Assembly (NCBI RefSeq): GCF_040364665.1
Contig: NZ_BAABWX010000010.1
Location: 1 to 64,000, forward strand
DNA length: 64,000 nt
DNA from: Cognatishimia sp. WU-CL00825
GTDB taxonomy: Bacteria > Pseudomonadota > Alphaproteobacteria > Rhodobacterales > Rhodobacteraceae
Direction: 5' to 3'
Within the stretch, counting starts at the first letter, position 1, and each line of letters starts with the position of its first letter. The notes under the pieces are model-generated. The model worked only from the letters and a program-made list of their open reading frames with translations. It was not told the DNA's origin and did no database searches. Below, piece after piece: positions 7,773-49,892 of this stretch. The position numbers and the translations under genes are program-made.

Positions 7773-7894
7773 TTCAGTACCCAAACTAAATTTCAGTTAT
7801 CACTGTATGAAGTTTTAGACGTTTAAGGAAGACCTGAACGCATGTAGGTTTGGAAAAACCGCCTCGGTCGCGGAAATTTTTTCAGGGGGAAAAC
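7773..7894. promoter_or_regulatory. Divergent LysR/sulfatase promoter region
   Basis: This 122-bp space between divergent start codons holds two copies of ATTTCAGT (7771-7778, overlapping the LysR start, and 7790-7797). It also holds an inverted repeat TTCA-N12-TGAA (7792-7811), which resembles LysR-type T-N11-A boxes. A good Shine-Dalgarno (AGGGGG) precedes the sulfatase ATG. Operator function is inferred. Confidence 0.4.
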
Positions 7895-9421
7895 ATGACC
7901 AAAACCAGCCAACCCAATATTTTGCTCGTCATGGTTGATCAGATGTCGCATTTTGTGCTGCCGATCGCGCAGCCGGAATACAGAACGCCCCATCACCAAG
8001 CCATTGCACCCAATATTGCCGCATTGGCCAAAGGTGGCATGACGTTCACGGACTGCTACACCGACTCGCCGCTCTGCGCCCCTGCGCGGGCGTCGATTGC
8101 CACCGGAATGCACGTTCGCGAACATGGCGTTTGCACCAACGGTGACGAATTTCATGCTTCAACGCCCACTTTCATGCACAGCTTGCAGGAACTGGGATAT
8201 CGCACGACGGTCTCGGGCAAAACCCATTCCATCGGCCCCGACCAATTGCACGGCTTCGATGATCGCCAGACAACCGACATCTATCCGTCTGATTTCATCT
8301 GGCAGCGCGACTGGTCGCAACCGGTTCAGCATGACCCCGGCACATCGGTCAAAAAGCTCTCTCAATCCGGGATCATCCGCACATCCATGCAGATGAACTA
8401 TGACACCGAAGCCAAGAACCGCGCGGTTGAATTCATGCAGGAGCACGTGCTGAACACCGACAATCAGCCGTTCATGATGATGGTGTCCTTTACCCAACCT
8501 CATGAGCCGTTTCAGGCGCTGAAAAAGCACTGGGATCTTTACGACGGTCAGGAGTTCGACGCACCAGGCCCCGAGTCGCGTGGCGACGGCGCGGATCATC
8601 CCTACAACAAGGGGCTGGAGATCTATCACGGCATCAACCTTGATCCCCCAGGCGATGACCGTATCAAGACTTCGGTGCGTGCGCATCTGGCCATGATCAG
8701 TCAAATCGATGATTTCCTTGGCGAAATGATGGACGCATTGGATCGGTTGCAACTGACCGAAGACACGATTGTTGTATTCACCAGCGACCACGGCGAGATG
8801 CTGGGCGCCCACCAGATGTGGTTCAAGCGATCCTTCATGGAAGAAAGCGCACATGTGCCGCTTGTGATGTCATGGCCGGGCAAGATCAAACCGGGTGTGT
8901 GCTCAGAGCCTGTCAGCCACGTCGACGTTGGCCCGACACTTGTAGATATGGCGGGTGGCACACCAGCAACCGTCAGCGTAAAATGGAGCGGCGACAGCCT
9001 GAAGACCATGTTGCTTGACGGTCAAGACTCCGACTGGCGTGGCACGGCCATGGTGGACTATTGGGGCGACGGGACGAACACGCCGATGATGGTTCTGCGC
9101 GAAGGCGATTTGAAACTCGCCTATTTCATCGATTATGAGCCGGTTTTGTTCAATCTGCGCGAAGACCCCTACGAGATGACAAATGTCGCGTCGGACCCGA
9201 AATATGCGGATCAGATGGCATCAATGATCGCCAAGATGACGGACGGTTTCGATCCGGCTGCCTTCAAGGAAGAACAGATCAGATTGCAAAAGAACCGCAT
9301 GATGATCCAGCGCGCACGCCTGAAATCTGACAGCGACAGGCTCGGCTGGGACTATCAGCCCAAGCGTGACGCAGGCAAGCAATACGTGCGTGCGGCTGTC
9401 AATGTCACTCCCGCTAAATGA
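7895..9421 (+). CDS. Type I sulfatase, choline-sulfatase (BetC)-like
   Basis: A 508-residue arylsulfatase-superfamily hydrolase that would cleave a sulfate ester. The formylglycine motif CAPAR is at residues 61-65 in SPLCAPARAS. The metal-binding MVDQ segment near the N-terminus and SDHGEMLG in the C-terminal half are present. Segments GPDQLHGF, TTDIYPSDF and WFKRSFMEESAHVPL closely resemble choline sulfatases as I recall them. The pentitol-metabolism context argues that the real substrate may be something else. No signal peptide is seen, so it should act in the cytoplasm. ATG 7895 is chosen over 7850 because AGGGGG lies just upstream and MTKTSQPNIL begins the family alignment. It needs an FGE, which is encoded at 15940. 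Confidence 0.88.
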   Translation: MTKTSQPNILLVMVDQMSHFVLPIAQPEYRTPHHQAIAPNIAALAKGGMTFTDCYTDSPLCAPARASIATGMHVREHGVCTNGDEFHASTPTFMHSLQELGYRTTVSGKTHSIGPDQLHGFDDRQTTDIYPSDFIWQRDWSQPVQHDPGTSVKKLSQSGIIRTSMQMNYDTEAKNRAVEFMQEHVLNTDNQPFMMMVSFTQPHEPFQALKKHWDLYDGQEFDAPGPESRGDGADHPYNKGLEIYHGINLDPPGDDRIKTSVRAHLAMISQIDDFLGEMMDALDRLQLTEDTIVVFTSDHGEMLGAHQMWFKRSFMEESAHVPLVMSWPGKIKPGVCSEPVSHVDVGPTLVDMAGGTPATVSVKWSGDSLKTMLLDGQDSDWRGTAMVDYWGDGTNTPMMVLREGDLKLAYFIDYEPVLFNLREDPYEMTNVASDPKYADQMASMIAKMTDGFDPAAFKEEQIRLQKNRMMIQRARLKSDSDRLGWDYQPKRDAGKQYVRAAVNVTPAK

Positions 9422-14404: not shown

Positions 14405-15910
14405 ATGACCAATACCGCTAAAAAACACCCCAATATTCTGATAATCTACCCGGATCAGATGCGTTATGACACCATGACCTGCAGTGGGAATCCGGTGATC
14501 AAGACGCCAAACATCGACCGTCTGTCGATGGAAGGCGTGCACTTTTCCGAGGCGTACACCTCTTATCCAATCTGTTGCCCGTTCCGCGCATCCATGCAGA
14601 CAGGCAAATATGCCCAAGGCCATGGCATGGTTCAAAACCATTTCCCGTTGCGCGGAGATCAGACGTTCTTGGCGGATTGCCTGAAAGGTGCAGGCTACCG
14701 CACAGGCTACATCGGGAAATGGCATCTGGAAGGTGGACCAAAGCCGGGTTTTGTGCCGCCCGAACGCCGGTTCGGCTTTGAGCACTTTGTCGGCTTTAAC
14801 CGTGGCCATGATTATCAGGGCTCGATCTATTTTGACGATGCCGGACAGGCCTATCATTCAAAGCGTTACGAGCCAGACTACCAGACCGATCAGTTGATGG
14901 AATTCATCGACACCGCCACCAAAGCAGATGATGGCAAACCGTGGTTTGGTTATGTCAGCTATGGCCCGCCGCATTTTCCGATGCAAATGCCCGACCACCT
15001 GCGCAAGATTTACAGCGCTGACGAGGTGCCCCTGCCGCCCGGTGTTCCCAACGCCGCATTGCAAGAAGAGTACCAACGCATCCGTAGCGAACAATATTGC
15101 AAAGGTGACCCGCGCAGCCCGCATAAAAGCCACGCCGCATATGATAAAAAACCCAAAGGCGAGCCCGAGACAGAGGACGAAATTCGTCAGTTTATCGCCG
15201 AATATTACGGGATGATTCACAATGTGGATTGGAATGTGGGGCGCGTTCTGAACCAGTTGGATGCACTTGGAATTGCCGATGATACGATGGTCATCTTCCT
15301 CAGCGATCATGGCGATATGTTGGGCCAGCAAGGGTCATTCTGCGGGATAAAGTGCGAAGGCTACAGGGCGGCGATGCATGTGCCGCTCATCATTCGCTAC
15401 CCTGCGCGATTCAAACCGCACCTGTCCGAGGCAATGATTGATGTTGGCGTCGATATGATGCCAACCCTATTGGATCTTTGCGGGATTCCAGGGCCGGATG
15501 ACATGCACGGGATCAGCTATCTGCCGGTTCTGGATGGCACGTCGGATCAGCATCGCGACACGATCTGGTTTCAGGTCTTTACCCAGGACGACGGACAGAT
15601 GGGGGAATTCACGCCCTATGCGCAACGTGGCGTGCGCACCCGCGACTGGCTTTACGTCCGTCACAAGGACCGTCGCGTGATGCTCTACGATCAGCGCGGT
15701 GATTATGACGAGCAGAACAATCTCGTCGACCGTCCCGAACATAGCGCTTTGATGGATGATTTCGACGCTCGGATCGCTGCACATATGGCGGCAACCGGCG
15801 ACGATTGGGACATGGCCGCAAATTTTCCGCCGCCAGACTTTATGAGCCACGCGGAGGCGAAGGAATATCTTGAGAACGTTCTGCTTCCAGCTGCAATTGA
15901 AGTTCCCTGA
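14405..15910 (+). CDS. Type I sulfatase (second)
   Basis: A 501-residue sulfatase with the formylglycine motif CCPFR at residues 57-61 (Cys57 is the predicted modified residue). Metal ligands are in IYPDQMR near the N-terminus and in SDHGDMLG. GKWHLEGG is the usual lysine/histidine segment. It differs clearly from the BetC-like enzyme at 7895, so it may act on another position or compound. No signal peptide is seen, so a cytoplasmic site is expected. It lies directly between the TctCBA genes and the FGE gene that should activate it. AGGA before ATG 14405 supports the start. Confidence 0.9.
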   Translation: MTNTAKKHPNILIIYPDQMRYDTMTCSGNPVIKTPNIDRLSMEGVHFSEAYTSYPICCPFRASMQTGKYAQGHGMVQNHFPLRGDQTFLADCLKGAGYRTGYIGKWHLEGGPKPGFVPPERRFGFEHFVGFNRGHDYQGSIYFDDAGQAYHSKRYEPDYQTDQLMEFIDTATKADDGKPWFGYVSYGPPHFPMQMPDHLRKIYSADEVPLPPGVPNAALQEEYQRIRSEQYCKGDPRSPHKSHAAYDKKPKGEPETEDEIRQFIAEYYGMIHNVDWNVGRVLNQLDALGIADDTMVIFLSDHGDMLGQQGSFCGIKCEGYRAAMHVPLIIRYPARFKPHLSEAMIDVGVDMMPTLLDLCGIPGPDDMHGISYLPVLDGTSDQHRDTIWFQVFTQDDGQMGEFTPYAQRGVRTRDWLYVRHKDRRVMLYDQRGDYDEQNNLVDRPEHSALMDDFDARIAAHMAATGDDWDMAANFPPPDFMSHAEAKEYLENVLLPAAIEVP

Positions 15911-15939: not shown

Positions 15940-16896
15940 ATGACCGAGAGCGAGAAAAAGGGTTCAAGTGCGTGCTGCGGTCCCGCTCGGGTACGCGACG
16001 ACCACGCGCTTGGGCATCAGACCTTTCCTACCAGCGATGACTCCGTCGAACACGATATCGTCGACATTCCGGGCGGGACCGGGTTTCTTGGCACAGACAG
16101 GCCGGAACTTGCCATTGATGGCGAGGCCCCCTTTCGCCAAAGCAAGGTCAAGCCATTTCGGATCGACACGACAACGGTTACGGTTGCTCGCTTTGCCGCA
16201 TTTGTTGCCGCGACAGGCTATAAAACAGAGGCTGAACGGCTGGGAGATTCATTTGTTTTCAGGGGGTTCCTTTCCGGCAACGCATTGAATGCGCCATCCG
16301 TTCCAGGTGCGCCTTGGTGGCTGATGATTAAAGGAGCCACTTGGCGCGCCATTTACGGCCCCGGTTCCGAAGCGGATACCAACCCTGACCATCCCGTCGT
16401 TCATGTGAGTTGGAATGACGCAATTGCCTTTGCGTCCTGGGCTGGTGGCAGACTGCCGACAGAGGCCGAGTGGGAACATGCCGCACGCGGCGGACTTGGA
16501 GATATTCGTTTTCCTTGGGGTGACAAAGAGCCCGACGACACCAACTACTTTCCGTGCAACATCTGGCAAGGGCGTTTTCCAGACAAAGACATGGGCCGCG
16601 ATGGATATATCGGCACTGCACCGGCGCAGTCATTCGAGCCGAACCCTTATGGTCTTTTCAACATGGTGGGAAACGTCTGGGAGTGGACATCCCAGCCTTT
16701 CACCGTTCGGTCGCTCAAAAAGTCAGTGAAACGCGCCCATCGCGGCAAAGCCGGGTTCAAGATCACTAAAGGAGGGTCGTTTCTGTGCCACCTAAGTTAT
16801 TGCTATCGCTATAGAATAGCCGCGCGCACCGGGACTTCTCCTGACAGCGCTATGTCACATCAAGGGTTCAGGTTGGTCTATGATGTCAAAGCTTAA
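15940..16896 (+). CDS. Formylglycine-generating enzyme (sulfatase-modifying factor)
   Basis: A 318-residue SUMF1/FGE-family protein that would oxidise the CxPxR cysteine of sulfatases to formylglycine. The two catalytic, copper-binding cysteines are Cys283 and Cys288 in GGSFLCHLSYCYRYR, as in characterised FGEs. HPVVHVSWNDA, GRLPTEAEWE and NVWEW are fold landmarks. No signal peptide is present, matching the cytoplasmic sulfatases. The N-terminal tail is unusual: residues 12-17 read CCGPAR, so Cys13-Arg17 is itself a perfect CxPxR. It is the only FGE in the window and may serve all four sulfatases. Confidence 0.93.
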   Translation: MTESEKKGSSACCGPARVRDDHALGHQTFPTSDDSVEHDIVDIPGGTGFLGTDRPELAIDGEAPFRQSKVKPFRIDTTTVTVARFAAFVAATGYKTEAERLGDSFVFRGFLSGNALNAPSVPGAPWWLMIKGATWRAIYGPGSEADTNPDHPVVHVSWNDAIAFASWAGGRLPTEAEWEHAARGGLGDIRFPWGDKEPDDTNYFPCNIWQGRFPDKDMGRDGYIGTAPAQSFEPNPYGLFNMVGNVWEWTSQPFTVRSLKKSVKRAHRGKAGFKITKGGSFLCHLSYCYRYRIAARTGTSPDSAMSHQGFRLVYDVKA

Positions 16897-28227: not shown

Positions 28228-29061
28228 CTACGGTTCAGCCATGAGCCATCTTTCCAACGATCTACCGACCGTTGTCATTCGACAAACCGAGGGCTGTCTA
28301 CCGATATAGCCTTCGACCATATCCAGTGATGAATCGGAAATGGCAACAGTCCGATCAATTCCTATGCCCAGACTTGGTGCAGCTCTCTCGACGAATTCCA
28401 TAACGTCGTCGACAGCCTGAAACATTGATCCATCCTCATTGAGCGGTAAAAAACGCCGGGTAGCTAAATCAATTAACTCCGGCCAATAAACAAGGTGGCG
28501 CCAAAGTGTAGGTACCGCCGGGTTACGACGTTCAGCACCAATGAACGTTGTTCTTTCAAGGATGTTCCAGTTTTCCGATGAAATTTGGTCTTTTTCCAGC
28601 AAAGGTTTCAAAGCAGAGCATTCTGGTCTGGCTGATACCATTTCTTTAAAATAAAATGCCTTTCCGGGAGTGCGCGCGAGAGCGGTCAGAGCAATCAAGG
28701 ACAGGGCGTTAGCTCTGTTATAGGCTCGAACAATCATCAATATTTCTGATTGATCGGCTTTGAGACAATCAAAGGAAGCCAATTCTTCTGATGCAGTATT
28801 CGAAGGCGTAGGAAAAACAACGTCCTTCTCTAAAGCCAATATGAACTGATCAGCTTGGCCATTTTCTATTACTGGGCGAACAGCGGTCCAAACTGCTTCT
28901 AGATCACCATCGACACCGGCCAAACCACGCCAGATTGCCGTGACTATGGGCACGTTCATCACCGATCTAATATCCGCGAAGATTTCGGCGGTACGGCCCG
29001 TCGCACCGGCTTCGGAGATCGCCCCAACTGGATCGTGTTCGTGATTTTGGCTTGAACTCAC
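28228..29061 (-). CDS. DehI-family halocarboxylic acid dehalogenase-like protein
   Basis: A 277-residue protein resembling the DehI (group I haloacid dehalogenase) family. The N-terminal EAGATGRTAEIFADIRSVMN and VTAIWRGLAGVDGDLEAVW match the first repeat of that alpha-helical fold. A second, similar repeat follows (PTLWRHLVYWPELIDL). Characterised members hydrolyse D- and L-2-haloacids. It overlaps the preceding HAD-type dehalogenase gene by 4 bp (ATGA), so the two are translationally coupled. It is the last gene of a long minus-strand sugar operon. Whether it truly dehalogenates anything is unknown. Confidence 0.7.
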   Translation of the reverse strand: MSSSQNHEHDPVGAISEAGATGRTAEIFADIRSVMNVPIVTAIWRGLAGVDGDLEAVWTAVRPVIENGQADQFILALEKDVVFPTPSNTASEELASFDCLKADQSEILMIVRAYNRANALSLIALTALARTPGKAFYFKEMVSARPECSALKPLLEKDQISSENWNILERTTFIGAERRNPAVPTLWRHLVYWPELIDLATRRFLPLNEDGSMFQAVDDVMEFVERAAPSLGIGIDRTVAISDSSLDMVEGYIGRQPSVCRMTTVGRSLERWLMAEP

Positions 29062-29786
29062 GCGCCCATCTTTTCTGCAAAATCGATGAAGTCAGTGGCA
29101 TGAACATCGATACGCTCATCACCCACCAGATCGGGTTCACGGTCGCTGTCGCCGAATTCATCTGGGCGTACGATGAAACCCGCCCGCAGACCGTTTTTAC
29201 GTGCGTTATAAAGATCAGAGAGATGGCAAGCAGCAACCATGACCTCATGTGTTTCATATCCAAGGAGATCAACAGCGCCCAAGTAGACTTTTGGATCTGG
29301 TTTGTAAGACCCAAAATTTTCGGCACCCATAATAACATCCCACGGCAAGCCGGCGTTTTTTGCCATATGCACCAAGAGGCCGTTGTCGCCGTTGGACAGC
29401 GTACCAATCATATATTTTTGCTTAAGACGGGTCAGCCCTTTAACACTATCCTTCCAAGGGGTAAGTCGGTGCCAGGCTTTGTTCAAATGGCGCAATTCGG
29501 CTTCGGACAGTCGATCCAGACCATAGTTTGCTTTCAGCAGGTTCAAGCGTTCCCAATGCAGCAGGTCCGCCTTTTTCCACGGTTGTTTCTCCAGCAAAAA
29601 GGCCCGCGAGCCCTCGTTGTAGCCGGCGCGCCACTTGTCTGCGAATTCTGACCAGTTGGCATCAATGCCATGGGTCTGGCCGACCTCTTCGAGTTCACGC
29701 AGGATAGAGCCTCGCCAATCCACGACAGTGCCGAAGACATCAAAGATTATGGCTTTTACTTGGCCGAGTGCATCACTCATGAGCAT
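29058..29786 (-). CDS. HAD-type (S)-2-haloacid dehalogenase-like protein
   Basis: A 242-residue HAD-superfamily protein of the type II haloacid dehalogenase group. The nucleophile is Asp16 in FDVFGTVVDWR. Motif II is LSNGDNG, motif III lysine is in YKPDPKVYL, and motif IV is in VAACHLSDLYNARKNG. GFIVRPDEFG is typical of this group. Expected chemistry is hydrolytic removal of halide from a 2-haloacid, although close relatives can be phosphatases. The start is ATG 29786 or 29780. It follows the SDR gene by about 24 bp and is coupled to the DehI-like gene. Confidence 0.8.
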   Translation of the reverse strand: MLMSDALGQVKAIIFDVFGTVVDWRGSILRELEEVGQTHGIDANWSEFADKWRAGYNEGSRAFLLEKQPWKKADLLHWERLNLLKANYGLDRLSEAELRHLNKAWHRLTPWKDSVKGLTRLKQKYMIGTLSNGDNGLLVHMAKNAGLPWDVIMGAENFGSYKPDPKVYLGAVDLLGYETHEVMVAACHLSDLYNARKNGLRAGFIVRPDEFGDSDREPDLVGDERIDVHATDFIDFAEKMGA

Positions 29787-38810: not shown

Positions 38811-40235
38811 ATGAGTCAGAATCTGGTTGTCATAATGTCTGACCAGCATCGGCGCTCTGCATTGGGCTGTTATGGGCACCCAGTTGTTGAAACCCCGGCA
38901 CTAGATGCATTGGCACAATGCGGCACGCGATTCTCGCGCGGTTATTGCAATGCACCTATATGTGTCCCTTCGCGCGCGAGCATGGCGACTGGGCTTCATA
39001 TCAATGAGGTCTCTGCCTGGGATAATGCAGCCCCCTATCGTGGGCAGCGCCGGTCTTTCATGCATCGCGCGCAGGATACCAAGCGCGAAACAGTGTCCAT
39101 CGGCAAGCTGCATTTCCGGAATACCGAAGACGACGTTGGCTTTGATCAGCAAATCCTGCCGATGCATGTTGTGAACGGCACCGGTACCTTTACGTCGCTT
39201 TTGCGCAATCCGCTGCCAACCGTTCAAACAGCCGGAGACTTGCTGCGCAATGCTGGTGCGGGCGCATCCCCTTATGCGGCCTATGATCAGTCGATCTGCG
39301 ATGCCGCGGTGGATTGGCTAGAAAATCGCAGCGCCGACGACGCGCCATTCTTATTGTTTGTGTCGTTCACAAACCCGCATCCGCCATACCTGGCCGAACA
39401 AGAGCTCTTTGACATATATATGTCACGTGATCTGGCGGAACCTAATGTGAGAGATGCCGCGCATCTTGATCACCAAACCCTGCAGAACCTCAGAACTTAT
39501 TTTGACATTGATCTTGATGCGCTGTCCGCAGAGCAGATCAAATCCATCACCGCGGCGTACTATGCCAATATCACTGCGCTGGACCGCCGTATTGGCAAGG
39601 TTCTGGACGCGCTGCGCAACAGCCAAGTCGGTGACGAAACACACATTATATATACAAGCGACCACGGAGAGGCGCTTGGCACCCATGGGCTCTATGGAAA
39701 ATGCAGCCTGTTAGAGCCCTCTGTGGGTGTCCCGTTGATCATGGCGGGCCCGGATATGCCCTATGGCAAAACCGTCAATACTCCGGCGCAACTGCTGGAT
39801 ATTTACCCAACCGTTCTGGATCTTTTTGACGCCACCCCGCAGCCACTGGATAAACGTCGCCGTGGCCGCTCGTTGCGCCAGATCGCACAAGAACCCAGCA
39901 CGCAACGTCCCATCGTGGCGCAACAACATTGTGCGGGGGCAACATCGGGCGTCTATGGCGTGACCGAAGGGCGTTGGAAATATATCTGCACGCCAGATGC
40001 AGACCCGCTGCTGTTTGATCTGCTCAAAGATCCCACAGAAAGCCAAAACCTGCACGGCACGCCAGAATTGGCACAGACCGAGGCCTCTCTGTTGAATGAA
40101 ATCCGCAAAGTCGCCGACCCAGTCGCGACGGATATCGCCTGCAAGCAATCGCAGATGGAACGCATTGTAGCGACAGGTGGTTACGAGGCCATCACGCAAA
40201 CACCAAACGCCGGGTTCACTCCGGCCCCGTCATGA
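38811..40235 (+). CDS. Type I sulfatase (third)
   Basis: A 474-residue sulfatase. The formylglycine motif CVPSR is at residues 51-55. IMSDQHRR near the N-terminus supplies metal ligands, GKLHF holds the usual lysine-histidine, and SDHGEALG supplies C-terminal ligands. No signal peptide is seen. It opens the plus-strand operon opposite the sugar ABC operon and overlaps the next gene by ATGA. No FGE gene lies in this operon; the one at 15940 would have to supply the modification. A sugar sulfate is the probable substrate class. Confidence 0.9.
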   Translation: MSQNLVVIMSDQHRRSALGCYGHPVVETPALDALAQCGTRFSRGYCNAPICVPSRASMATGLHINEVSAWDNAAPYRGQRRSFMHRAQDTKRETVSIGKLHFRNTEDDVGFDQQILPMHVVNGTGTFTSLLRNPLPTVQTAGDLLRNAGAGASPYAAYDQSICDAAVDWLENRSADDAPFLLFVSFTNPHPPYLAEQELFDIYMSRDLAEPNVRDAAHLDHQTLQNLRTYFDIDLDALSAEQIKSITAAYYANITALDRRIGKVLDALRNSQVGDETHIIYTSDHGEALGTHGLYGKCSLLEPSVGVPLIMAGPDMPYGKTVNTPAQLLDIYPTVLDLFDATPQPLDKRRRGRSLRQIAQEPSTQRPIVAQQHCAGATSGVYGVTEGRWKYICTPDADPLLFDLLKDPTESQNLHGTPELAQTEASLLNEIRKVADPVATDIACKQSQMERIVATGGYEAITQTPNAGFTPAPS

Positions 40236-41107
40236 GCAAGCACATGCCTCTGACACAAACCCACCGCAGCCAGGGCCTGGCGCTCTTTTCGATTTTCTCG
40301 GCGACCGCGTCTTCGGTTTTGCTGAAAACCGTTGACGTTACCCCAATAAGCGAGGCCGTCGCCATTCGCTCGGTCTTTGGTTTCATCGTTTTGGGCTTCA
40401 TCATTCTGGCGTGGTCAACACCAAATGCCGCTCCAATCGGCCGCAGCGCCGTATTCCGCGCAGCGCTGGATGCTTTGGCGGCACTCACGCTGTCCTTCTC
40501 AATCTTTCTTTTGCCGCTGAGTTTGCTGGCCAGTATTCACGCGACATTACCAATTCTTTCAATTGTGCTGTCTGCGATCATGCTCTCTGAGCGCATGTCG
40601 ATCCAAAGCTGGGTCGCCTTGATCCTCGCACTGGCAGGCACGCTTCTTATTTTGAGCCCCGGCATCGACTATTCGATTGCGGGTGTGCTGCTGGCGATCA
40701 TTTCGCTTTTCGCCTACGCCTTCCGGGATGTCGTAACGCGCCGCATGCCGCAAGATCTCGACCTGCGTAAAGTCACCCTGATTTCCTTGGCGTTTGTTTC
40801 GCTTTCCTCATTGGCTGTGTCTGCACAGCAACCTTGGGTGAAACCGGCCACACCGGAATTGTTGGCGATTTGCCTGGCCGGGCTGACCTTCCTTGTCGCC
40901 AACTTCATGATCGTTGCGGCCCTGCATCGCTGTGCCGTGAACCGGATCGCCCCCCTGCGCTACACCGCCATACTTTGGGCTCTGATCTTTGACTGGGCTG
41001 TATGGGGCTACCTGCCAGAACCTATCGCCTGGGTCGGCATCGGTTTGATCATGGCAGCTGGCCTTTTGTTGATGCTGCAACCTCATCCTGCGGAGCAAGT
41101 TGAATGA
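40232..41107 (+). CDS. EamA/DMT-superfamily transporter
   Basis: A 291-residue membrane protein with about ten helices in two EamA repeats. The first repeat is recognisable in FSIFSATASSVLLK and the second in GVLLAIISLFAYAFRDVVTRR. It overlaps both sulfatase genes by ATGA, so the three are translationally coupled. Family members export or exchange metabolites. Here it could export a by-product or import the sulfated substrate; the direction is not visible in sequence. Confidence 0.88.
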   Translation: MSKHMPLTQTHRSQGLALFSIFSATASSVLLKTVDVTPISEAVAIRSVFGFIVLGFIILAWSTPNAAPIGRSAVFRAALDALAALTLSFSIFLLPLSLLASIHATLPILSIVLSAIMLSERMSIQSWVALILALAGTLLILSPGIDYSIAGVLLAIISLFAYAFRDVVTRRMPQDLDLRKVTLISLAFVSLSSLAVSAQQPWVKPATPELLAICLAGLTFLVANFMIVAALHRCAVNRIAPLRYTAILWALIFDWAVWGYLPEPIAWVGIGLIMAAGLLLMLQPHPAEQVE

Positions 41108-42552
41108 GTAAACATCCCAATATTCTGTTCATCCTACCGGATCAGCTGCGCGCAGATTTTCTGGGGTGCTATGGCGCGGATTTCCTGAAGACCCCGCATG
41201 TCGATGGGCTGGCAGAAATCGGCACTCGGTATGACGCCGCCATCTCCCCGAGCCCGATTTGCGTTCCAGCCCGCGCCTCTATGCTGACCGGTCAAGATGC
41301 CCATGAGACCGGCGTGGTGCATAACCTTGCCTGGCTGCGCCCGGACCGCCGCGAGATGGGCATTGAAACCTGGCCTGAGCGTTTAAACGCCGCCGGGTAT
41401 CACACGTTGGCCATCGGCAAGATGCATTTCTACCCGTGGGACATCAACGAAGGATTCCAAACGCGCGTGATCGCCGAAGACAAACGCCACATCCACATTC
41501 ATGACGACTACCATGATGCATTGGCCTCAGAGAATTTTGAAAAGCTGCACGGCATTGATCAAGAAGGTTACGCTGAGCAAAAAGGTGCCTCGATCAACGC
41601 ACTACCAGATCACTTGCAACCAGACCGCTGGGTTGCTGATCAGGCCATTCAAGCGCTGAAATCCCATGATCCGGATCAGCCATTTGCGATGATGGTTGGC
41701 TTTCCGGGGCCGCATTGCCCCTATGATCCGCCAGCAGAAGCGCTGAAGGATGTCGATGCAGGCGCTATGCCTTCAGCAATCCCGCAAACGGACGAGGCAC
41801 GCACACATCACGCGGAATTTGTGGCGTCTTATAAACGGCCTTGGGCGGACATTGATTATAGCAACCTGTCTGCCGCTGAAATTGAAACCATCCGCCAATA
41901 TTACTGCGCCTCCGTAGAGCGCATTGACTCGGATGTGGGTCGCCTGCTTAACACGCTGCGCGAGACTGGCCAGCTGGACAACACCATAGTGGTGTTTTCC
42001 TCAGATCACGGCGACTACCTTGGTGACTTTGGCCTGATGGGCAAAGGCTATTTCCACGAGCCGTCTATTCGCGTGCCGCTGATCGTAGCTGACTTCCGCG
42101 CGCCAACGCAGGCAAAGGTCGACAACAGTGTTGTTTCGCTCACCGATCTACATGCAAGCTTTGCAGCCTGGGGCAGCATCACGCCAAGCGCTGCGGCCAC
42201 TGGCCCGACATTGGGGTCTGCACCTGCTGATCGCGTTGTCATCGGTGTCACAAGCCAAGGCATGATGGCGCGTTCGCAGCGTTGGAAACTGGTGCGTTAC
42301 AAGAACGGTATGCAGGCGCTGTTTGACCTATCAAACGATCCGACAGAACAGATCAACCAGATCGCCGAACACCCCCAAATTCGTGAAGAATTGGATGCGG
42401 CCCTCACGGCAAGCCTGCTGGAGGCCACAAAGACATCCTTTGCGGATCGCTATGTGGCGGAAGCAAAGTCGCCCCCCGATCACCCATTTCACCGGCGCGA
42501 TTGGCGTCGTGATTTCCCAAGCAGAATTGGACAGGACGCCAGCAAGCTTTGA
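41104..42552 (+). CDS. Type I sulfatase (fourth)
   Basis: A 482-residue sulfatase. The formylglycine motif CVPAR is at residues 53-57, with FILPDQLR near the N-terminus, GKMHFYPWD and SDHGDYLG. No signal peptide is present. Its ATG overlaps the transporter stop. It is similar in overall plan to the sulfatase at 38811 but not a recent duplicate, as judged from many differences outside the motifs. The two may remove sulfate from different positions of one molecule. Confidence 0.9.
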   Translation: MSKHPNILFILPDQLRADFLGCYGADFLKTPHVDGLAEIGTRYDAAISPSPICVPARASMLTGQDAHETGVVHNLAWLRPDRREMGIETWPERLNAAGYHTLAIGKMHFYPWDINEGFQTRVIAEDKRHIHIHDDYHDALASENFEKLHGIDQEGYAEQKGASINALPDHLQPDRWVADQAIQALKSHDPDQPFAMMVGFPGPHCPYDPPAEALKDVDAGAMPSAIPQTDEARTHHAEFVASYKRPWADIDYSNLSAAEIETIRQYYCASVERIDSDVGRLLNTLRETGQLDNTIVVFSSDHGDYLGDFGLMGKGYFHEPSIRVPLIVADFRAPTQAKVDNSVVSLTDLHASFAAWGSITPSAAATGPTLGSAPADRVVIGVTSQGMMARSQRWKLVRYKNGMQALFDLSNDPTEQINQIAEHPQIREELDAALTASLLEATKTSFADRYVAEAKSPPDHPFHRRDWRRDFPSRIGQDASKL

Positions 42553-42599: not shown

Positions 42600-44969
42600 A
42601 TGGACCACAAAACACGCGAATATGATCTGGTTGTCGCCGGCGGCGGCATTTCCGGCTTTTGCGCGGCTATCACAGCTGCACGGGAAGGCATCCGCGTTGC
42701 CCTCATCGAACAACGTCCACTTTTGGGTGGGAACTCCAGTAGTCTTGCCCTTGTTCCACCTCATGGTGCGGCCTCTTTCTGGCACAACCGGATGGCGCGC
42801 GAAGGTGGTATTCTCGAAGAGATCATCATGGAATACGCGAACCGCTCTCAGCAAGCGGATAACCGTCGTATTTGGGATCTGATCCTATCTGAATGGTGCT
42901 TGCGTGAACCGACGCTCGATCTGTTTTTGAACGCGCGCCTTGGTAGCGCAGTCACCGAAGACGATCGCATCAAAAGCGTGCAGGTCACTCAGCACTCGAC
43001 AGAAACCGTATTCACCATGCATGCGCCGGTGTTCCTGGACGCAACAGGTGACGCGCTTCTGTCTGACTTTGCTGGGGCGGAATTCACCATCGGTCGCGAA
43101 GGCACAGCGGAGTTCGGCGAACGCCTGGCACCGCCGGAAGGGGATTCAAAAACCCTGCCAAGCGCACTTTATGTGATTGCGCAACGCCGCAGCCGCCCTG
43201 TGGAATACACGCCGCCACCTTGGCTGAAGCGCCGCCTCGGCTGCGAAGATTTCCCGCACCGTCCACATATCATCGACAAATTCTCGAAATCAAAAGCTCT
43301 GAGTGAAGATGGATCAACCATCCAGCTTTTCTGGTGGTTCTCGCTGGGTGGAGACAAAGACACCATTAAAGACAGCGAAGAGATCTACAACGACCTTCTG
43401 GCTGAATCTATGGCCGTTTGGGATCACCTCAAGAACCACTGTACGCCGGAAACTCAAGATGCTCTGAAATACTACGAAGCCACATGGTGGTCCCCGTTCC
43501 CGCTGCGCCGTGAATCCCGCCGGGTTGTTGGTGACTATATGCTAACCGAAGGTGATATTTTCGAACCTCAACTCTTTGAAGACCGTGTGACTTATGGTGG
43601 TTGGCCTGTGGATGTTCACCCACCAGAGGGCATGCACAGCAAAGAGCCACCTTGTGATCAGAGTTTTGTGAACGAACTCTACAGCGTGCCTTACCGTACC
43701 ATGTATTCACGCAATGTCTCCAATCTGTTCCTTGCTGGCCGTTGCCTCAGCGTTAGCCACGTCGCGATGGGATCCATCCGCGTGATGAACAGTCTGGGTG
43801 CTGCGGCGCAGGCTGTTGGTATGGCTGCTGTACTCTGTAAGCGTCACGGCGTTGATCCGCGTAAGGTGGGCACCTCCCACATGCGCGAGCTTCAACAGGA
43901 ACTTCTGCGCGTAGATCACCACATCATTGGTGTATCTGGCGATGACGCCGACGATCTGGCGCGTCAGGCAACAGTGGAAACCTCAAGCGCTTTGGTCGAT
44001 ATCGTCGACGAAGCCGATGACTTTCTTGATCTGGTCTATGACACCGCTCAGCAGGTTCCTGTACAAGCGGGCCCATTGGATCAGGTCTCGATTCGTCTGA
44101 AATCGGCAGCGGATGCCGACACAGACGTCAAAATGCGCTTTATCCTCAGCGATACGCTGGGCCGTTTTGATCACAAGAACCCAGTGGCCGAGCATACACA
44201 TTCGATTGCTGCGGGTGCTGAGGAATGGGTGGATTGCCCAATCGATACAACGCTCGACAAAGATCAACTGCTGTGGATCTGCATCGACGAAACACCGAAT
44301 GTGCAGTGGGCTTATCGCCGCAAAGAAGCCTTCACCACACGCTTTGCCGTGCGCTTTGAAGGTGAGCTGGTGCCGCGGCCATCCCATGGTAAGGCCCGTA
44401 TCGCGCCCACAAACGACGATTGGTTCCCGATCAACCACAACGGCCGTTTGCCACACGAACTGCACGATTGGATTTCTGAAACCGTCGGTATAGATTTTGA
44501 CCGCAAGGTACGCGCCACCATGTGTCATCGCATCACCCCAATGCCCCAACCATATGGCGGCGAAAACGTTCTAAACGGAATTTCCCGCGCGGAACATTGG
44601 CCAAACATCTGGATTTCCGACCCGAAAGCAAAAGGCAATGACCATCTAACATTGAAATGGGACGAGACCAAAAAGGTTTCCGAAATCCGCCTGACCTTTG
44701 ACACGGACCTTGACGCGCCTGACCGCTGCTACGGCTGGCCGCGCGAAGAACACCGCTTCCTCTTCCCGGTTGCGGAATGTGTGCGCGACTACCGTGTGAT
44801 GGGTCTGTTCAACGGCGAATGGCAGGAGCTGGACTCTGTTGAAGGCAACTACAACCGCCACCGCATCCACACGCTGGACGAACCAGCCATGCTGGATGCC
44901 GTGCGCGTCGAAGCCTTGGAAAGCAACGGCGCCGACACCACCCGCCTTTATGAAATCCGCGTCTACTAA
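42600..44969 (+). CDS. Large FAD-dependent oxidoreductase with extra C-terminal domain
   Basis: A 789-residue flavoprotein of the FAD_oxidored (pfam12831-like) group. The dinucleotide motif GGGISGFCAA is at about residues 15-24. NSSSLALVPPHG and the late FAD segment LAGRCLSVSHVAMGSIRVM (about residue 375) define the catalytic half. About 300 further residues follow. Their end (HLTLKWDETKKVSEIRLTF, later DAVRVEALESNG) resembles a beta-sandwich, discoidin-like carbohydrate-binding fold. No signal peptide is seen. It lies between the sulfatases and the GrdB-like gene. The substrate is unknown; oxidation of a sugar or organic acid is plausible. Confidence 0.8.
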   Translation: MDHKTREYDLVVAGGGISGFCAAITAAREGIRVALIEQRPLLGGNSSSLALVPPHGAASFWHNRMAREGGILEEIIMEYANRSQQADNRRIWDLILSEWCLREPTLDLFLNARLGSAVTEDDRIKSVQVTQHSTETVFTMHAPVFLDATGDALLSDFAGAEFTIGREGTAEFGERLAPPEGDSKTLPSALYVIAQRRSRPVEYTPPPWLKRRLGCEDFPHRPHIIDKFSKSKALSEDGSTIQLFWWFSLGGDKDTIKDSEEIYNDLLAESMAVWDHLKNHCTPETQDALKYYEATWWSPFPLRRESRRVVGDYMLTEGDIFEPQLFEDRVTYGGWPVDVHPPEGMHSKEPPCDQSFVNELYSVPYRTMYSRNVSNLFLAGRCLSVSHVAMGSIRVMNSLGAAAQAVGMAAVLCKRHGVDPRKVGTSHMRELQQELLRVDHHIIGVSGDDADDLARQATVETSSALVDIVDEADDFLDLVYDTAQQVPVQAGPLDQVSIRLKSAADADTDVKMRFILSDTLGRFDHKNPVAEHTHSIAAGAEEWVDCPIDTTLDKDQLLWICIDETPNVQWAYRRKEAFTTRFAVRFEGELVPRPSHGKARIAPTNDDWFPINHNGRLPHELHDWISETVGIDFDRKVRATMCHRITPMPQPYGGENVLNGISRAEHWPNIWISDPKAKGNDHLTLKWDETKKVSEIRLTFDTDLDAPDRCYGWPREEHRFLFPVAECVRDYRVMGLFNGEWQELDSVEGNYNRHRIHTLDEPAMLDAVRVEALESNGADTTRLYEIRVY

Positions 44970-45016: not shown

Positions 45017-46264
45017 ATGGCATTTATTACAGATATGACAGAGAAGGCTCAGCGCGGCATCCGTAATCTTGAAACGCCCACTTTCGACAACAAACCTTGG
45101 GTTGTCGGCCCGTCAATGTCGGAACGCAAAGTGACAATGATTTCCTCTGCGGGCCTGCACCTGCGTAGTGATCAACGCTTTATCGGCATGGACAGCAGCT
45201 ATCGCGCGATCCCATCCTCTGCGGATCCAAGCGATGTGTTGATGGGCCATGTTTCCACCAACTTTGATCGCACGGGCTTTATCCAAGACATCAACGTTGC
45301 TTACCCGATTGAGCTGCTGCGGTCCTTGGTGGACGAAGGCTTTATCGGTTCCATGGCAGATGCGCATTACTCCTTCATGGGCGGCGCATATCCGATGGAT
45401 ATGGAAGACCACGCGCGCGCATTGGCGGCGAAGCTACGCGAAGAAGGTGTCGATACGGCCCTCTTCGTTCCAACCTGCCCGCATTGTACTCGCGCGGTCA
45501 GCGTTCTGGCACATTTCCTTGAAGAAGAAGGTATCGCAACCACGGTCGTCGGTCTGCTGCGCGAGCTTATCGAACGTGCGGCACCTCCGCGTGCAATTTG
45601 GGTGCCATTTGAAATGGGCCGCCCATTGGGGAACCCGTTTGATCGCGACACGCAGATGTCCGTGATGAAAGCAGCGCTTGGCCTCTTGGACCGTCAAGAT
45701 GGCCCCGGCATCATCGAAGACTTCGACGGTGACATCAGCAAGAAAACCTCGGATTGGAAACCTGCTGTCGTCACCTCGCGCACAGATGCGCCGGCCAGCG
45801 ATATTGATGCGTTCCGCGTTGCATTGGCTGCCGAACTTGAAACGGTTGCGCCGCATCGCGCGGCAGCACTTCAGCGTCTGGGCCGTTCCAGCTTTGGCAA
45901 CAGCGCCTTGCTGATCGAAAAGATCAACGAACTCTTGTTGTCCTATTTGGCAGAAGCCCCAATCGAAAATCCGAACGAGGATTTCTCACCGCTTCTGACA
46001 CTGCGCTTTGCGATGGACGACATTAAAACTTTCTACTTTGAGGCTGCCGTCAGCGAGACAAGCAGCCCACAAAGTGTCCCAATGGAAGATTGGTTTTGGA
46101 AGCACACTGTCGCAGGTCAGTTGCTAATCGAACTGCGCGACCTCGGTCTGCGCGGCTCTGATCCAAAATTCGAGCGTGTGAGTACGAATTTCACAATGCC
46201 CCACAAGTACGTGGTGGAGCTCAACTTGCGGTCTGTCGACAACGCCCCCCTCCCCGGGAAGTAG
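45017..46264 (+). CDS. GrdB/PrdB-like protein with CxxC in place of UxxC
   Basis: A 415-residue protein whose N-terminal half resembles component B of glycine/betaine/sarcosine reductase and D-proline reductase. Matching features are GHVSTNFDRTGFIQDINVAY, GFIGSMADAHYSFMG and the redox loop VPTCPHCTRAVS. Cys154 and Cys157 stand where the selenoenzymes carry UxxC. The C-terminal half (DIKTFYFEAAVSE, VSTNFTMPHKYVVEL) is unfamiliar. No in-frame TGA is present, so it is not a selenoprotein. Characterised relatives are anaerobic reductases; this operon has flavin and ThDP enzymes instead. Its reaction is not known. It is 47 bp after the FAD gene. Confidence 0.7.
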   Translation: MAFITDMTEKAQRGIRNLETPTFDNKPWVVGPSMSERKVTMISSAGLHLRSDQRFIGMDSSYRAIPSSADPSDVLMGHVSTNFDRTGFIQDINVAYPIELLRSLVDEGFIGSMADAHYSFMGGAYPMDMEDHARALAAKLREEGVDTALFVPTCPHCTRAVSVLAHFLEEEGIATTVVGLLRELIERAAPPRAIWVPFEMGRPLGNPFDRDTQMSVMKAALGLLDRQDGPGIIEDFDGDISKKTSDWKPAVVTSRTDAPASDIDAFRVALAAELETVAPHRAAALQRLGRSSFGNSALLIEKINELLLSYLAEAPIENPNEDFSPLLTLRFAMDDIKTFYFEAAVSETSSPQSVPMEDWFWKHTVAGQLLIELRDLGLRGSDPKFERVSTNFTMPHKYVVELNLRSVDNAPLPGK

Positions 46265-46307: not shown

Positions 46308-46337
46308 CCTTAGCTAGATAGACAATTGGAAAGTCAG

Positions 46338-48017
46338 ATGACTAAGTCAACCAAACCCACCGGCGCAACGATCATCGCAGATGTGATCGAAAAACATGAA
46401 AAGGTAGATACCATTTTCTTCGTCGATGCAGTTCTGCGCTACACCCTGCTGCAACTGGAAGAGCGCGGCATCAAGCGTATTCTGGCGCACAGCGAAAAAG
46501 CTGCGGCCTATATGGCCGACGGCTACGCCCGTGTGTCCGGCAAAACTGGCGTCTGCATGGCGCAGGCTGTTGGCGCTGCGAACCTGGCCGCTGGCCTGCA
46601 GGACGGCTACCTTGATCGTGTTTCTATGTTAGCGCTGACGGGCCGCAAGGCAGACACCCATCTGGATCGCAACGCCTACCAAGAGGTTGCGCATGGTCCA
46701 ATGTATAGCTCTGTCACCAACTACACCGCGCAAGTACGCACCGTTGAAGAGCTGCCACGCATGCTGGGCAACGCCCTGCGCGCGACCCGCACCAACACCC
46801 CACGCCCGGCGCATTTGGACCTTGATGGCTTGAAAGGCGACAAAGTCGAAGAGGCAACTTTCGAAGGAAATGCTGCGCTTCTGGACTTCCCTGCATCTGG
46901 TATCAGCAAGCCGGGTCTGCCGCATGTAGACGCGCTGAACGAAGCGGCTGAACTGATCAAAAACGCGAAGAAACCGATGCTGGTTGCAGGCGTTTCCAGC
47001 CTCTATTCCAAAGCAGGCGCAGGCCTCAAAGCCCTGGCCGAAGCGGCAGGCATCCCGGTGGCGACCTCTGTGGGTGGCCGTTCCGTGATCGAGACCTCGC
47101 ATCCAAACCACTTTGGCATTGTGGGCACCTACTCTGCCCCTTACGCGAACGAGCTGCTGGCCGAAGCTGATCTTGTGATCTACGTCGGTTGTCACATGGG
47201 TGACCAAATCAGCTGTGACTGGACCATCCCGGCGCTGGGGACAAACATCATTCAAATCGACACCGATGCAGCAGAGCTGGGTCGTGGCTATCCAAACGTT
47301 CTGGGCCTGTGTGGTGATCTGAACGACACCTGTCAGGCACTGTCTGGCATTTCTGGCGAGGCCACATCAGACGATTGGCTGACAAAATGTACCTCTGCAG
47401 CACAAACATGGTTGGAAACATCCATGGCGGGCATCCGTACCGAAACCGGCCTGATCCCTGCGCCACGCTTGGCGTATGAAGTGGGTGAAGCACTACCAGA
47501 CAACGGTGTGGTAGTGGCTGACACAGGTTTCTCTGCAACATGGACTGCGCAATACACGGCCTTTGACAAGCCGGGCCAGACTTATCTGCGCGCTGCGGGC
47601 TCTCTGGGTTGGGCCTTCCCAGCGGCATTAGGGGCGGCGCTTGGCGCACCTGATCGCCCGGTGGTCTGCTTCACCGGTGATGGCGCGCTTTACTATCACA
47701 TCGGCGAGCTGGAAACGATGCGCCGCTGGAACATCCCAATGGTCTTGGTTGTGAATAACAACTCTGCCCTCGGTCAGGGGCTGCGCAGCGTCAAGAAACT
47801 CTACTCGGAACGCGATGGTAACCTAGGTGATCTGGTAGAATTCCAGAAAAACAACTTCGCGGATATGGCCAAGACCTACGGCATCAAATCCTTCCGCGTT
47901 GAGAAGGTCGAAGACATTCGCCCAACCATCGAACAAGCCATCGCTCTGCGCGAGCCTGTGGTTGTCGATGTGGTCACCGACCCAGACAGCAACCCAGAGC
48001 CAGCGTGGTTGGTCTAA
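46338..48017 (+). CDS. Thiamine-diphosphate-dependent enzyme (acetolactate-synthase-like)
   Basis: A 559-residue ThDP enzyme with three domains. The activating glutamate is Glu53 in HSEKAAAYMADGYAR. The central domain has GVSSLYSKAG and VGGRSVIE. The ThDP motif runs from GDGALYYHIGE to NNNSALGQG. The family includes acetolactate synthase, carboligases and 2-keto-acid decarboxylases. ATG 46338 is chosen over TTG 46326 because GGAAAG precedes it. It overlaps the next gene (TAATG). Its partners, the GrdB-like and FAD proteins, suggest a specialised carboligase or decarboxylase rather than branched-chain biosynthesis. Confidence 0.85.
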   Translation: MTKSTKPTGATIIADVIEKHEKVDTIFFVDAVLRYTLLQLEERGIKRILAHSEKAAAYMADGYARVSGKTGVCMAQAVGAANLAAGLQDGYLDRVSMLALTGRKADTHLDRNAYQEVAHGPMYSSVTNYTAQVRTVEELPRMLGNALRATRTNTPRPAHLDLDGLKGDKVEEATFEGNAALLDFPASGISKPGLPHVDALNEAAELIKNAKKPMLVAGVSSLYSKAGAGLKALAEAAGIPVATSVGGRSVIETSHPNHFGIVGTYSAPYANELLAEADLVIYVGCHMGDQISCDWTIPALGTNIIQIDTDAAELGRGYPNVLGLCGDLNDTCQALSGISGEATSDDWLTKCTSAAQTWLETSMAGIRTETGLIPAPRLAYEVGEALPDNGVVVADTGFSATWTAQYTAFDKPGQTYLRAAGSLGWAFPAALGAALGAPDRPVVCFTGDGALYYHIGELETMRRWNIPMVLVVNNNSALGQGLRSVKKLYSERDGNLGDLVEFQKNNFADMAKTYGIKSFRVEKVEDIRPTIEQAIALREPVVVDVVTDPDSNPEPAWLV

Positions 48018-48967
48018 TGTCTCACTACGCGAAAGTCACTGTTGCAGGTGCAGGAACGATGGGACATGCCATCGCGCTTGTGCATGCAATCGGCGGGTGT
48101 CGGGTCACACTGACCGACCTCTCTCCCACCCAGCTAGAATGGGCTGGCACCCGCCTCCAAGAATTGGCGGTCGAATTGGTGGACCTTGGTTTGATCAAAG
48201 CCGAAGAAAGTGCCTCTGTCTTAGATAGAGTCACTTACACCACCGATCTGGCAGCTGCGCTCAAAGGCAGCAATCTGCTGATCGAAGCCATCATTGAAGA
48301 CGCTGACATCAAAGAAAAGTTCTTTGCTCAGGTTGCAGAGCTCATGGATGAGACCTGCATTCTGGCTAGCAACACATCCTTCCTGGATGTCTTTCCTCTG
48401 CTGCCAGAAAGCCTGCGTCACCGTTGCTTGATCGTGCATTGGTACACCCCGCCTTATCTGATCGACCTGGTGGATGTGGTTGCAGCCCCCGATACCCCGG
48501 CACAAGTTGCGCTGGATATGAAAGCCTTTTTGCAAGGTCTTGGTAAGAAGCCGGTGATCTTGAAAAAGTTTGTCCCAGGTTACATCGCCAACAATGTGCA
48601 AATGGCCATTGAAAGCGAGATTTTCCGCCTGCTGGATGCGGGTGTCGCAGATGCCTCTGACATCGACGAAGCCGTGCGCTTTGGCCTGGCGCACCGTCTT
48701 GGCCTGATGGGTCAATTCAAAAAGATCGACTACACCGGCCTGCAGGTGGTGCGCGATATCCACGAGATGCGGCTTTATACGCCGCCGTCCAAACCAACCG
48801 GTTCCAAGAAGCTCGAAGAGCTGCTGAACAATGGCGACAAGGGATTGCTGACCGGACGGGGTTTTTACGATTATTCCGATGAGGATGCGTCAACCTACCT
48901 TAAACGCCGCGATCGCAAGCTTCTGAAGGTTAAGAAAGCTTTTGAGGGTGACGATGAACCTCTCTAA
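48017..48967 (+). CDS. 3-hydroxyacyl-CoA dehydrogenase-family NAD enzyme
   Basis: A 316-residue two-domain NAD-dependent dehydrogenase. The Rossmann motif is GAGTMGHA at about residues 10-17. The candidate catalytic histidine is in IVHWYTPPYL. The C-terminal helical domain has FVPGYIANNVQ and RFGLAHRLGLMG. This family also includes L-gulonate 3-dehydrogenase and L-carnitine dehydrogenase, so the substrate need not be a CoA ester. ATG 48017 shares bases with the preceding stop, so the genes are tightly coupled. In this sugar-acid setting a hydroxy-acid dehydrogenase is likely. Confidence 0.83.
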   Translation: MSHYAKVTVAGAGTMGHAIALVHAIGGCRVTLTDLSPTQLEWAGTRLQELAVELVDLGLIKAEESASVLDRVTYTTDLAAALKGSNLLIEAIIEDADIKEKFFAQVAELMDETCILASNTSFLDVFPLLPESLRHRCLIVHWYTPPYLIDLVDVVAAPDTPAQVALDMKAFLQGLGKKPVILKKFVPGYIANNVQMAIESEIFRLLDAGVADASDIDEAVRFGLAHRLGLMGQFKKIDYTGLQVVRDIHEMRLYTPPSKPTGSKKLEELLNNGDKGLLTGRGFYDYSDEDASTYLKRRDRKLLKVKKAFEGDDEPL

Positions 48968-49892
48968 GACCAACCAATGGCCGATTGCAGTGTTTGATTG
49001 GGGCACAACAAACCTAAGGGCACATGCGGTTGATCAGGGCGGGAATATCCTCAGAACGATCACCTCGCCCAGTGGCATTAAATTCATCGAACCAGGCACC
49101 TGCCCCGCTCGATTTGCTTCTATCATGGGCCAATTGCGAGAAAGCCACCGCTGCAAACACGCCTATCTAGTTGGCATGATTGGCAGCGCACTGGGTTGGC
49201 ATGAGGTTCCGATGCAACCGGGTCCGATGAATGCACGGCAGATCGCCCAAAACTTGTCACCCGTGCAAGGATTGCCCGCCGTGATTGTACCGGGTGTTAC
49301 CGCACCATCTATTGCAGGTCTGCCAGACATGATGCGTGGGGAAGAAACCCAGATTTTTGGTGCCTGTAGAATAATTAACCGTGAATCCTTCCACCTGTGC
49401 CTTCCTGGCACCCATTCAAAATGGGTATTTCTGAAAGATGGCGCGATCACGAACATCACAACAGCCATGACTGGCGAGCTTTTTGAGCTGCTTACCAACG
49501 CAAGCATTCTGAAACAACAAGTTGCCAAGGAACTTCATTCTGTTGATTTGCAGGCCTTCAAAGAAGGCCTGGCTGTAGCGAAGACAGGCCTGGGCGCACA
49601 GATATTGGCGTTCTCGACGCGACCAAGAAGTCTTGTCGCGGGGAAGCCTGAAGGAAACAATGCGGCGAACTATTTGTCGGGCATTCTGATTGGGTCAGAA
49701 ATCCATGCGATGTGTAATGCGCTGAAAACTCCGGTATCGGAGATCGCATTAATTGCGGAAGATTCGATTTCTCGTCTCTATGCTTTGGCATTTCAAGAAC
49801 ACGACATCAAAGTGCGCCGCATCGATGGAGCACATGCTGTGGCCATGGGTGCAGCCATGTTGCACCGAAACGCAATCCAAAAAGCAAAATAG
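48954..49892 (+). CDS. dgoK: 2-dehydro-3-deoxygalactonokinase (DgoK family)
   Basis: A 312-residue kinase that phosphorylates 2-keto-3-deoxygalactonate (or a related acid) with ATP. The N-terminal phosphate loop is FDWGTTNLRAH. MIGSALGWHEVP, LPGTHSKW and the C-terminal SGILIGSEIHA fit the DgoK family. Its start (48954, preceded by GAGGG) lies inside the 3' end of the previous gene. It suggests that the pathway passes through a 2-keto-3-deoxy sugar acid, which the divergent operon's dehydratase could produce. No terminator hairpin was found after it. Confidence 0.88.
   Translation: MNLSKTNQWPIAVFDWGTTNLRAHAVDQGGNILRTITSPSGIKFIEPGTCPARFASIMGQLRESHRCKHAYLVGMIGSALGWHEVPMQPGPMNARQIAQNLSPVQGLPAVIVPGVTAPSIAGLPDMMRGEETQIFGACRIINRESFHLCLPGTHSKWVFLKDGAITNITTAMTGELFELLTNASILKQQVAKELHSVDLQAFKEGLAVAKTGLGAQILAFSTRPRSLVAGKPEGNNAANYLSGILIGSEIHAMCNALKTPVSEIALIAEDSISRLYALAFQEHDIKVRRIDGAHAVAMGAAMLHRNAIQKAK

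Follow-up and report, generated by a model that had tools for sequence, protein, structure and literature searches.

A cysteine form of a long, two-domain PrdB-like selenoprotein family among sulfatase genes of Cognatishimia sp. WU-CL00825: a candidate stand-alone reductase

What does a protein resembling a component of selenium-dependent amino acid reductases do among sulfatase genes, and does it act together with the genes that flank it? The gene lies in a 64 kb stretch of Cognatishimia sp. WU-CL00825 DNA (contig NZ_BAABWX010000010.1, positions 1 to 64,000), which is referred to as the window. The initial annotation described a GrdB-like protein with the motifs STNFDRTGFIQD, SFMG and CxxC, lying between an FAD oxidoreductase and a ThDP enzyme with sulfatases and DgoK on the same strand. 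The reading frame and its motifs are real: the 415-aa protein carries STNFDRTGFIQD at residues 80-91, SFMG at 119-122 and C154-P-H-C157, the complementary frame of 45017-46264 is interrupted by stops, and the described neighbours were confirmed by Pfam matches. The features are as follows.

38811..40235, + strand: sulfatase
40232..41107, + strand: EamA-family transporter
41104..42552, + strand: sulfatase
42600..44969, + strand: FAD_oxidored (PF12831) protein of 789 aa, the upstream neighbour (Pfam 271.9 bits)
45017..46264, + strand: long PrdB-like gene, Cys form, with an ATG start and a product of 415 aa
45017..45745, + strand: PrdB-like core, residues 1-243, a predicted Rossmann-like alpha/beta domain (from alignment with two annotated PrdB proteins; the fold rows cover residues 32-243)
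45476..45487, + strand: CxxC codons, Cys154 (TGC) to Cys157 (TGT), in place of UxxC; relatives have TGA at the first
45770..46261, + strand: helical C-terminal domain, residues 252-415, without a Pfam family or PDB match
46326..48017, + strand: three-domain ThDP enzyme of the acetolactate-synthase superfamily, the downstream neighbour (TTG start listed; ATG at 46341)
48005..48967, + strand: 3-hydroxyacyl-CoA-dehydrogenase-type (3HCDH) enzyme
48942..49892, + strand: DgoK, 2-keto-3-deoxy-galactonokinase family (PF05035, 250.9 bits)

The genes run on one strand in the order sulfatase, EamA, sulfatase, FAD_oxidored, PrdB-like gene (the fifth), ThDP, 3HCDH-type and DgoK, with successive gaps of -4, -4, 47, 47, 61, -13 and -26 bases, and the shared strand and gaps of -26 to +61 bases suggest that they likely form one operon. 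The window holds four sulfatases (7850-9421, 14405-15910, 38811-40235 and 41104-42552) and an FGE-type sulfatase-modifying protein (15940-16896); with two sulfatases and the FGE-type protein lying outside the operon, the setting is probably one of sulfated-carbohydrate use. At 29058-29786 and 28228-29061 of the window, a HAD hydrolase, which we take to resemble 2-haloacid dehalogenases, adjoins a 276-aa protein without a Pfam match (E <= 1e-5).

The best-scoring NCBIfam model for the protein was PrdB TIGR04483 (residues 33-225, 123.4 bits, E 9.8e-36), the cut-off of 300 being missed, and GrdB-type models gave 30-42 bits against cut-offs of 65-800, with neither TIGR01917 (30.4 bits, cut-off 602.2) nor TIGR01918 (34.1 bits, cut-off 65.45) reaching its threshold. 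The Pfam GRDB family PF07355 matched residues 82-152 with 22.9 bits, just passing its gathering score of 22. Judged by these scores, the similarity to the GrdB/PrdB group is above chance and the protein is nearer to PrdB than to GrdB. Two annotated PrdB proteins align at full length with residues 1-240 at 31-32% identity, and R63, H78, D84, D91 and N93 are invariant between them and the window protein. The PrdB selenocysteine (U151), encoded by an active-site TGA in both PrdB genes, aligns with Cys154 of C154-x-x-C157, in agreement with the earlier view that CxxC replaces UxxC.

Structure prediction with AF2 gave a pLDDT of 92.3 and a pTM of 0.91 for the whole protein, and 92.7 and 0.87 for the C-terminal domain alone, which is helical in the model. 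The N-terminal part is modelled as Rossmann-like in overall shape, with C154 placed between a strand (147-151) and a helix (155-170). The protein belongs to a group of proteins with a PrdB-like core followed by a helical C-terminal domain, called here the long PrdB-like family as delimited in the present analysis, for which 58 members were aligned (alignment A3: 53 of 80 loci with P0001-P0004 and P0043) along with 54 C-terminal parts. All 58 aligned members match TIGR04483 (E <= 0.01). The C-terminal half had been called unfamiliar, and this is borne out across the family: no Pfam family was found in any of the 54 members scanned (E <= 0.01), and no PDB match was found for the domain.

The relatives identify what the window gene is an exception to. 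In a contig scan whose search patterns left the Cys154 site untouched, TGA occupies exactly the Cys154 position in 80/80 GTDB-contig relatives (the best 80 of 247 stretches), 78 of which read as a single frame of 370-460 aa with a median of 406. A second sample, drawn from whole genomes, has TGA in 29 of 32 distinct loci and Cys (TGC or TGT) in three; eight further rows were the same places repeated, and its organisms may overlap with those of the first sample. A survey of 385 genomes of the class gave a match at E <= 1e-10 in 50; by hand count of the listing, the long form is present in 33, with an inner TGA in 29 and no inner stop in four, including the window's genome. A protein-database search returned 41 entries, namely four full-length Cys proteins (the query included) and 37 of 229-281 aa (P0005-P0041), all of which start where the query has residue 156-167. 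Starting just past the Cys154 position, the short entries look like C-terminal selenoprotein pieces left by gene callers after the UGA; one of them, P0007, is encoded in locus L157 with a TGA in front. The window gene, with TGC where the family has TGA, is by this comparison a rare selenium-free copy, and cysteine appears as the exception within a selenoprotein family. Three loci (L029, L032 and L086) carry a tandem pair of PrdB-like genes. One locus with the Sec form, L058, comes from Reyranella sp. CPCC 100927, a record other than a MAG.

The sequence just past the TGA bears a mark of its own. Codon 159 has a third-base entropy of 0.45 bits and codon 160 one of 0.17 bits, whereas 55 other conserved columns average 1.64 and go no lower than 1.24, and C is the third base in 67/74 and 77/79 cases; a synonymous-constraint test over codons 155-166 (6 columns) gave a Mann-Whitney p of 0.016. 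These codons lie 13-18 bases past the UGA, presumably about the expected place of a bacterial SECIS loop, and the strong synonymous constraint is what a SECIS would be expected to impose. The window gene reads ACT CGC GCG GTC at codons 158-161, where the commonest third bases among relatives are G, C, C and G. Folding of 48-nt windows past the UGA gave no SECIS hairpin signal better than six control offsets (mean z -0.34), and RNAalifold on 63 of the 80 loci returned a consensus with 3 pairs and no covariation.

A tRNA-Sec of at least 58 bits is present in 42 of 45 Sec-carrier genomes, the remaining three scoring 51.5, 50.5 and 43.2, and one of these three also lacks SelB. Tested for SelB, 9 of 10 Sec carriers score above the cut-off (5/6 and 4/4), and none of four Cys carriers does (the window's genome, G000, and G276, G480 and G270). 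At E <= 1e-8, no tRNA-Sec was found in these same four genomes, and one was found in G326 and G419. The best tRNA-Sec match in the window's genome scores 49.0, above the gathering score of 47, yet falls on a tRNA-Ser, and its best SelB match (184 bits, in a 394-aa frame) covers the first 266 of 581 model positions. ARAGORN placed a tRNA-Sec inside loci L015, L016, L157, L158, L045, L024 and L020, and the four best-scoring Sec relatives (L015, L016, L157 and L158) have divergent selA and selB beside the PrdB-like gene. Together with L045, these four show a compact grouping near the Sec form, resembling a selenocysteine cassette, of tRNA-Sec with selB and selA; in L024 the tRNA-Sec accompanies selB and selD, and in L020 it accompanies selB and, farther away, selA. 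SelD-type genes are near the PrdB-like gene in 8 loci and far from it in none.

In a tree of 85 rows (tree 1) the Cys label needs two changes, and again two in a tree of 45 rows with a PrdB outgroup (tree 2), where a very long branch (2.89) leads to the outgroup. As both outgroup PrdB proteins contain Sec, two replacements of Sec by Cys are simpler to assume than the reverse. Cysteine arose at least twice, each time in genomes without a SelB match, and the replacement may have followed because the host could not read UGA as Sec. The Cys forms L154, L155 and L156 constitute one clade in tree 2, and the long branch of P0001/P0002 sits beside L015/L016 in tree 1 (85/87) and branches first in tree 2.

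Could the protein nonetheless be a true component B of a D-proline or glycine/betaine-type reductase, its partner being encoded elsewhere in the genome? The core is homologous to PrdB, and the relative P0003 is labelled 'D-proline reductase (dithiol) PrdB' in one source; in an annotated neighbourhood, prdB has prdA and a gene for a component B subunit next to it. The initial annotation had noted that GrdE is absent from the window, and this holds for the whole genome: PF09338, which we take to be the family of PrdA and GrdE, has no match anywhere in it. PF09338 is also rare among carriers: of 45 Sec carriers, four give a score above its cut-off and a fifth has a match beneath it, and since this set contains positives the search itself works. 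A second set gave 0/33 (30 Sec and 3 Cys carriers), where the controls were also silent and the genomes may overlap with the first set. GrdA (PF04723) was found in 0/24 genomes, the window's included, and equally in none of the controls. Set against the shared core, the missing PF09338 partner, the score of 123 bits against a cut-off of 300 and the 165 additional residues make the component B reading very improbable. The long PrdB-like proteins would instead constitute a stand-alone family and not a component of D-proline or glycine reductase.

A second possibility is that the protein is a subunit of an enzyme system formed with its FAD and ThDP neighbours, as the initial annotation had proposed. 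The three genes follow one another on the same strand, separated by 47 and 61 bases; the initial annotation had named co-occurrence elsewhere as the test of the proposal, and the result over 90 loci goes against it. By tblastn, the FAD protein has a homolog in 0/90 family loci, many of which are short and ended by contig edges, and searches of 15 other carrier genomes gave one weak match. The ThDP enzyme recurs in L019 only, as a remote homolog (25% identity) together with DgoK (35%), and the sister locus L030 has a piece of DgoK (39%). On named plasmids, FAD and ThDP homologs have carbohydrate-type surroundings with no GrdB-like gene annotated alongside, and more distant FAD homologs adjoin sugar transport or sulfatase genes. 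In these loci and genomes the trio does not recur and looks like a local assembly inside a sulfatase/sugar operon, and membership in a three-protein system is accordingly improbable.

A PrdB-like match was found in 0/8 other members of the window's genus, a full-length match to the FAD protein exists among 146 relatives in the window's genome only, and the FAD relatives of 57-67% identity that carry an organism name (among 120 of 1786 proteins listed) are from Synoicihabitans and Planctomicrobium, presumably of other phyla than the window's organism. Taken together, the operon looks assembled by transfer, and the PrdB-like gene and its FAD neighbour would have separate origins. Among plasmid records, P0001 matched 24 (20 listed) over at most 55% of the query, the annotated ones being prdB, and no near match to the window operon DNA was found.

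Across the family, neighbours were counted by scanning 105 of 117 operon genes, 12 having been removed by hand (near-duplicate L064, pieces of the target gene, over-long ORFs and a few others); ORFs came from a custom ORF caller, and the sets A5 and A6 pool unrelated proteins as input to the Pfam scan and are no true alignments. TauD (PF02668) is the commonest family among same-strand operon neighbours (10/105), and in a random 105 distal genes it has at most one member, being absent from the 25 families shown, which reach down to one member. By HMM, TauD was found in 13/473 close and 1/399 far genes (Fisher p 0.0023) and in 11/90 loci, an enrichment that is favoured because the operon TauD genes served to build the HMM and is weakened further by related loci; the TauD of L076 is counted as a locus and was dropped from the gene count by an overlap filter. 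In L154 and L155, of the Cys clade, TauD is directly 3' of the PrdB-like gene, and it is absent from the window operon. TauD/TfdA dioxygenases are thus recurrent neighbours of the long PrdB-like family. Enrichment of CoA-transferase, 2-hydroxyacid dehydrogenase and SDR neighbours was not significant.

A sulfatase link of the Cys forms was also considered. Sulfatases lie near all three Cys forms L154, L155 and L156, near the Sec loci L041 and L076 among the first 80, and near none of L157-L163; the HMM count is 1/473 close against 3/399 far genes and the three Cys loci are one clade, leaving the link as a lead. The window (40232-41107) has an EamA gene close to the PrdB-like gene, as do L157 and L158, two of the four best-scoring Sec relatives; EamA genes are common.

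These varied surroundings, with 32/90 loci having no operon partner, are also what would be seen if the protein were a general thiol-disulfide or peroxide/electrophile reductase serving redox housekeeping, with incidental neighbours, and not a catabolic cleavage enzyme. A UxxC or CxxC at a helix start and the frequent proximity of sel genes fit such a role, whereas the over-representation of TauD among operon partners, the conserved Arg63, His78, Asp84, Asp91 and Asn93, which suggest a specific small-molecule pocket, and the restriction of the long form to 33/385 class genomes count against it. We regard this housekeeping role as unlikely, though it is the alternative to be taken most seriously.

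The explanation that best fits the evidence, and that we hold to be on balance probable, is that the window protein is the Cys form of a two-domain long PrdB-like selenoprotein family acting as a stand-alone reductase. In the mechanism envisaged, the PrdB-type Rossmann-like domain would hold the reactive Sec or Cys154 at a helix start, followed by the family-specific helical domain. By analogy with PrdB and GrdB, residue 154, as selenolate or thiolate, may attack an activated substrate, perhaps at the carbon next to a carbonyl or at an S-X bond; the leaving group would be expelled, Cys157 would resolve the adduct, and thioredoxin or glutathione could restore the 154/157 pair. Arg63, His78, Asp84, Asp91 and Asn93 are putative binding or acid-base residues, and the C-terminal helices may seal the pocket at the place taken by PrdA in D-proline reductase. 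The substrate would vary by pathway: in many cases it would be a compound of pathways with a neighbouring TauD-type dioxygenase, and for the window perhaps one released in sulfated-sugar breakdown. The suggestion of an undescribed redox or cleavage enzyme made for this locus at the outset probably stands.

A broader proposal is put forward more tentatively: the 'PrdB' selenoprotein of databases and marine surveys may, in most of these carriers, be another selenoenzyme that acts alone, binds its substrate through a domain of its own and catalyses a new reductive reaction, often one coupled to TauD-type dioxygenases. Some lineages would keep tRNA-Sec, selB and selA beside the gene, as though selenocysteine were retained for its sake, and others would have exchanged Sec for Cys and brought the enzyme into sulfatase regions. 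Since most carriers examined have no PrdA/GrdE match and the proteins have an extra domain, the name 'PrdB' probably misdescribes many of them. The natural Cys form needs no selenium machinery and can therefore be produced in ordinary E. coli, which makes the function of the family directly testable, and the Sec/Cys pairs are suited to asking what a reductase gains from Sec.

No mention of a PrdB-like family that is long and independent of PrdA was found in the literature, as covered by titles and abstract openings among the matches listed and by excerpts of PMC1088965, PMC2398784, PMC13188914, PMC1794560, PMC9312934 and PMC5029168. Excerpts of a 2026 review equate TIGR04483 with D-proline reductase and name no split into such a family. 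In its excerpted text, the 2006 survey does not list a Sec-to-Cys event for proline reductase (PMC1794560), and the GOS survey, likewise in excerpt, gives 110 Cys homologs of PrdB (PMC2398784).

Compared with known systems, the window protein is closest to PrdB (TIGR04483), whose whole length matches residues 1-240, including the UxxC position and the five invariant residues. PrdB, however, is a single domain of about 240 aa, whereas the window protein has 415 aa with an extra helical domain of ~165 aa, falls short of the PrdB model's cut-off, has Cys for Sec and resides in a genome without a PrdA/GrdE-family match. Component B of glycine, sarcosine and betaine reductase (GrdB/GrdF/GrdH; PF07355, TIGR01917 and TIGR01918) shares the region around STNFDR...UxxC, but the match falls towards the C terminus of the models and towards the N terminus of the window protein. 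Short PrdB-like Sec proteins (L006 and L014, with frames of about 290-300 aa) share the PrdB-like core, with UPVCHQTV or UPLDHQTV, but lack the C-terminal domain and form a separate, shorter group; many shorter rows of the 385-genome survey also belong to this group, and several genomes have more than one such row. The 'proline reductase PrdB' counted among the most numerous marine selenoprotein families in the excerpts of two metagenome surveys (PMC1088965 and PMC2398784) resembles the present family in being UxxC-bearing, marine and abundant, and probably corresponds to it or to a mixture that includes it; in those excerpts it differs in being named after D-proline reductase, with neither an extra domain nor an absent PrdA mentioned.
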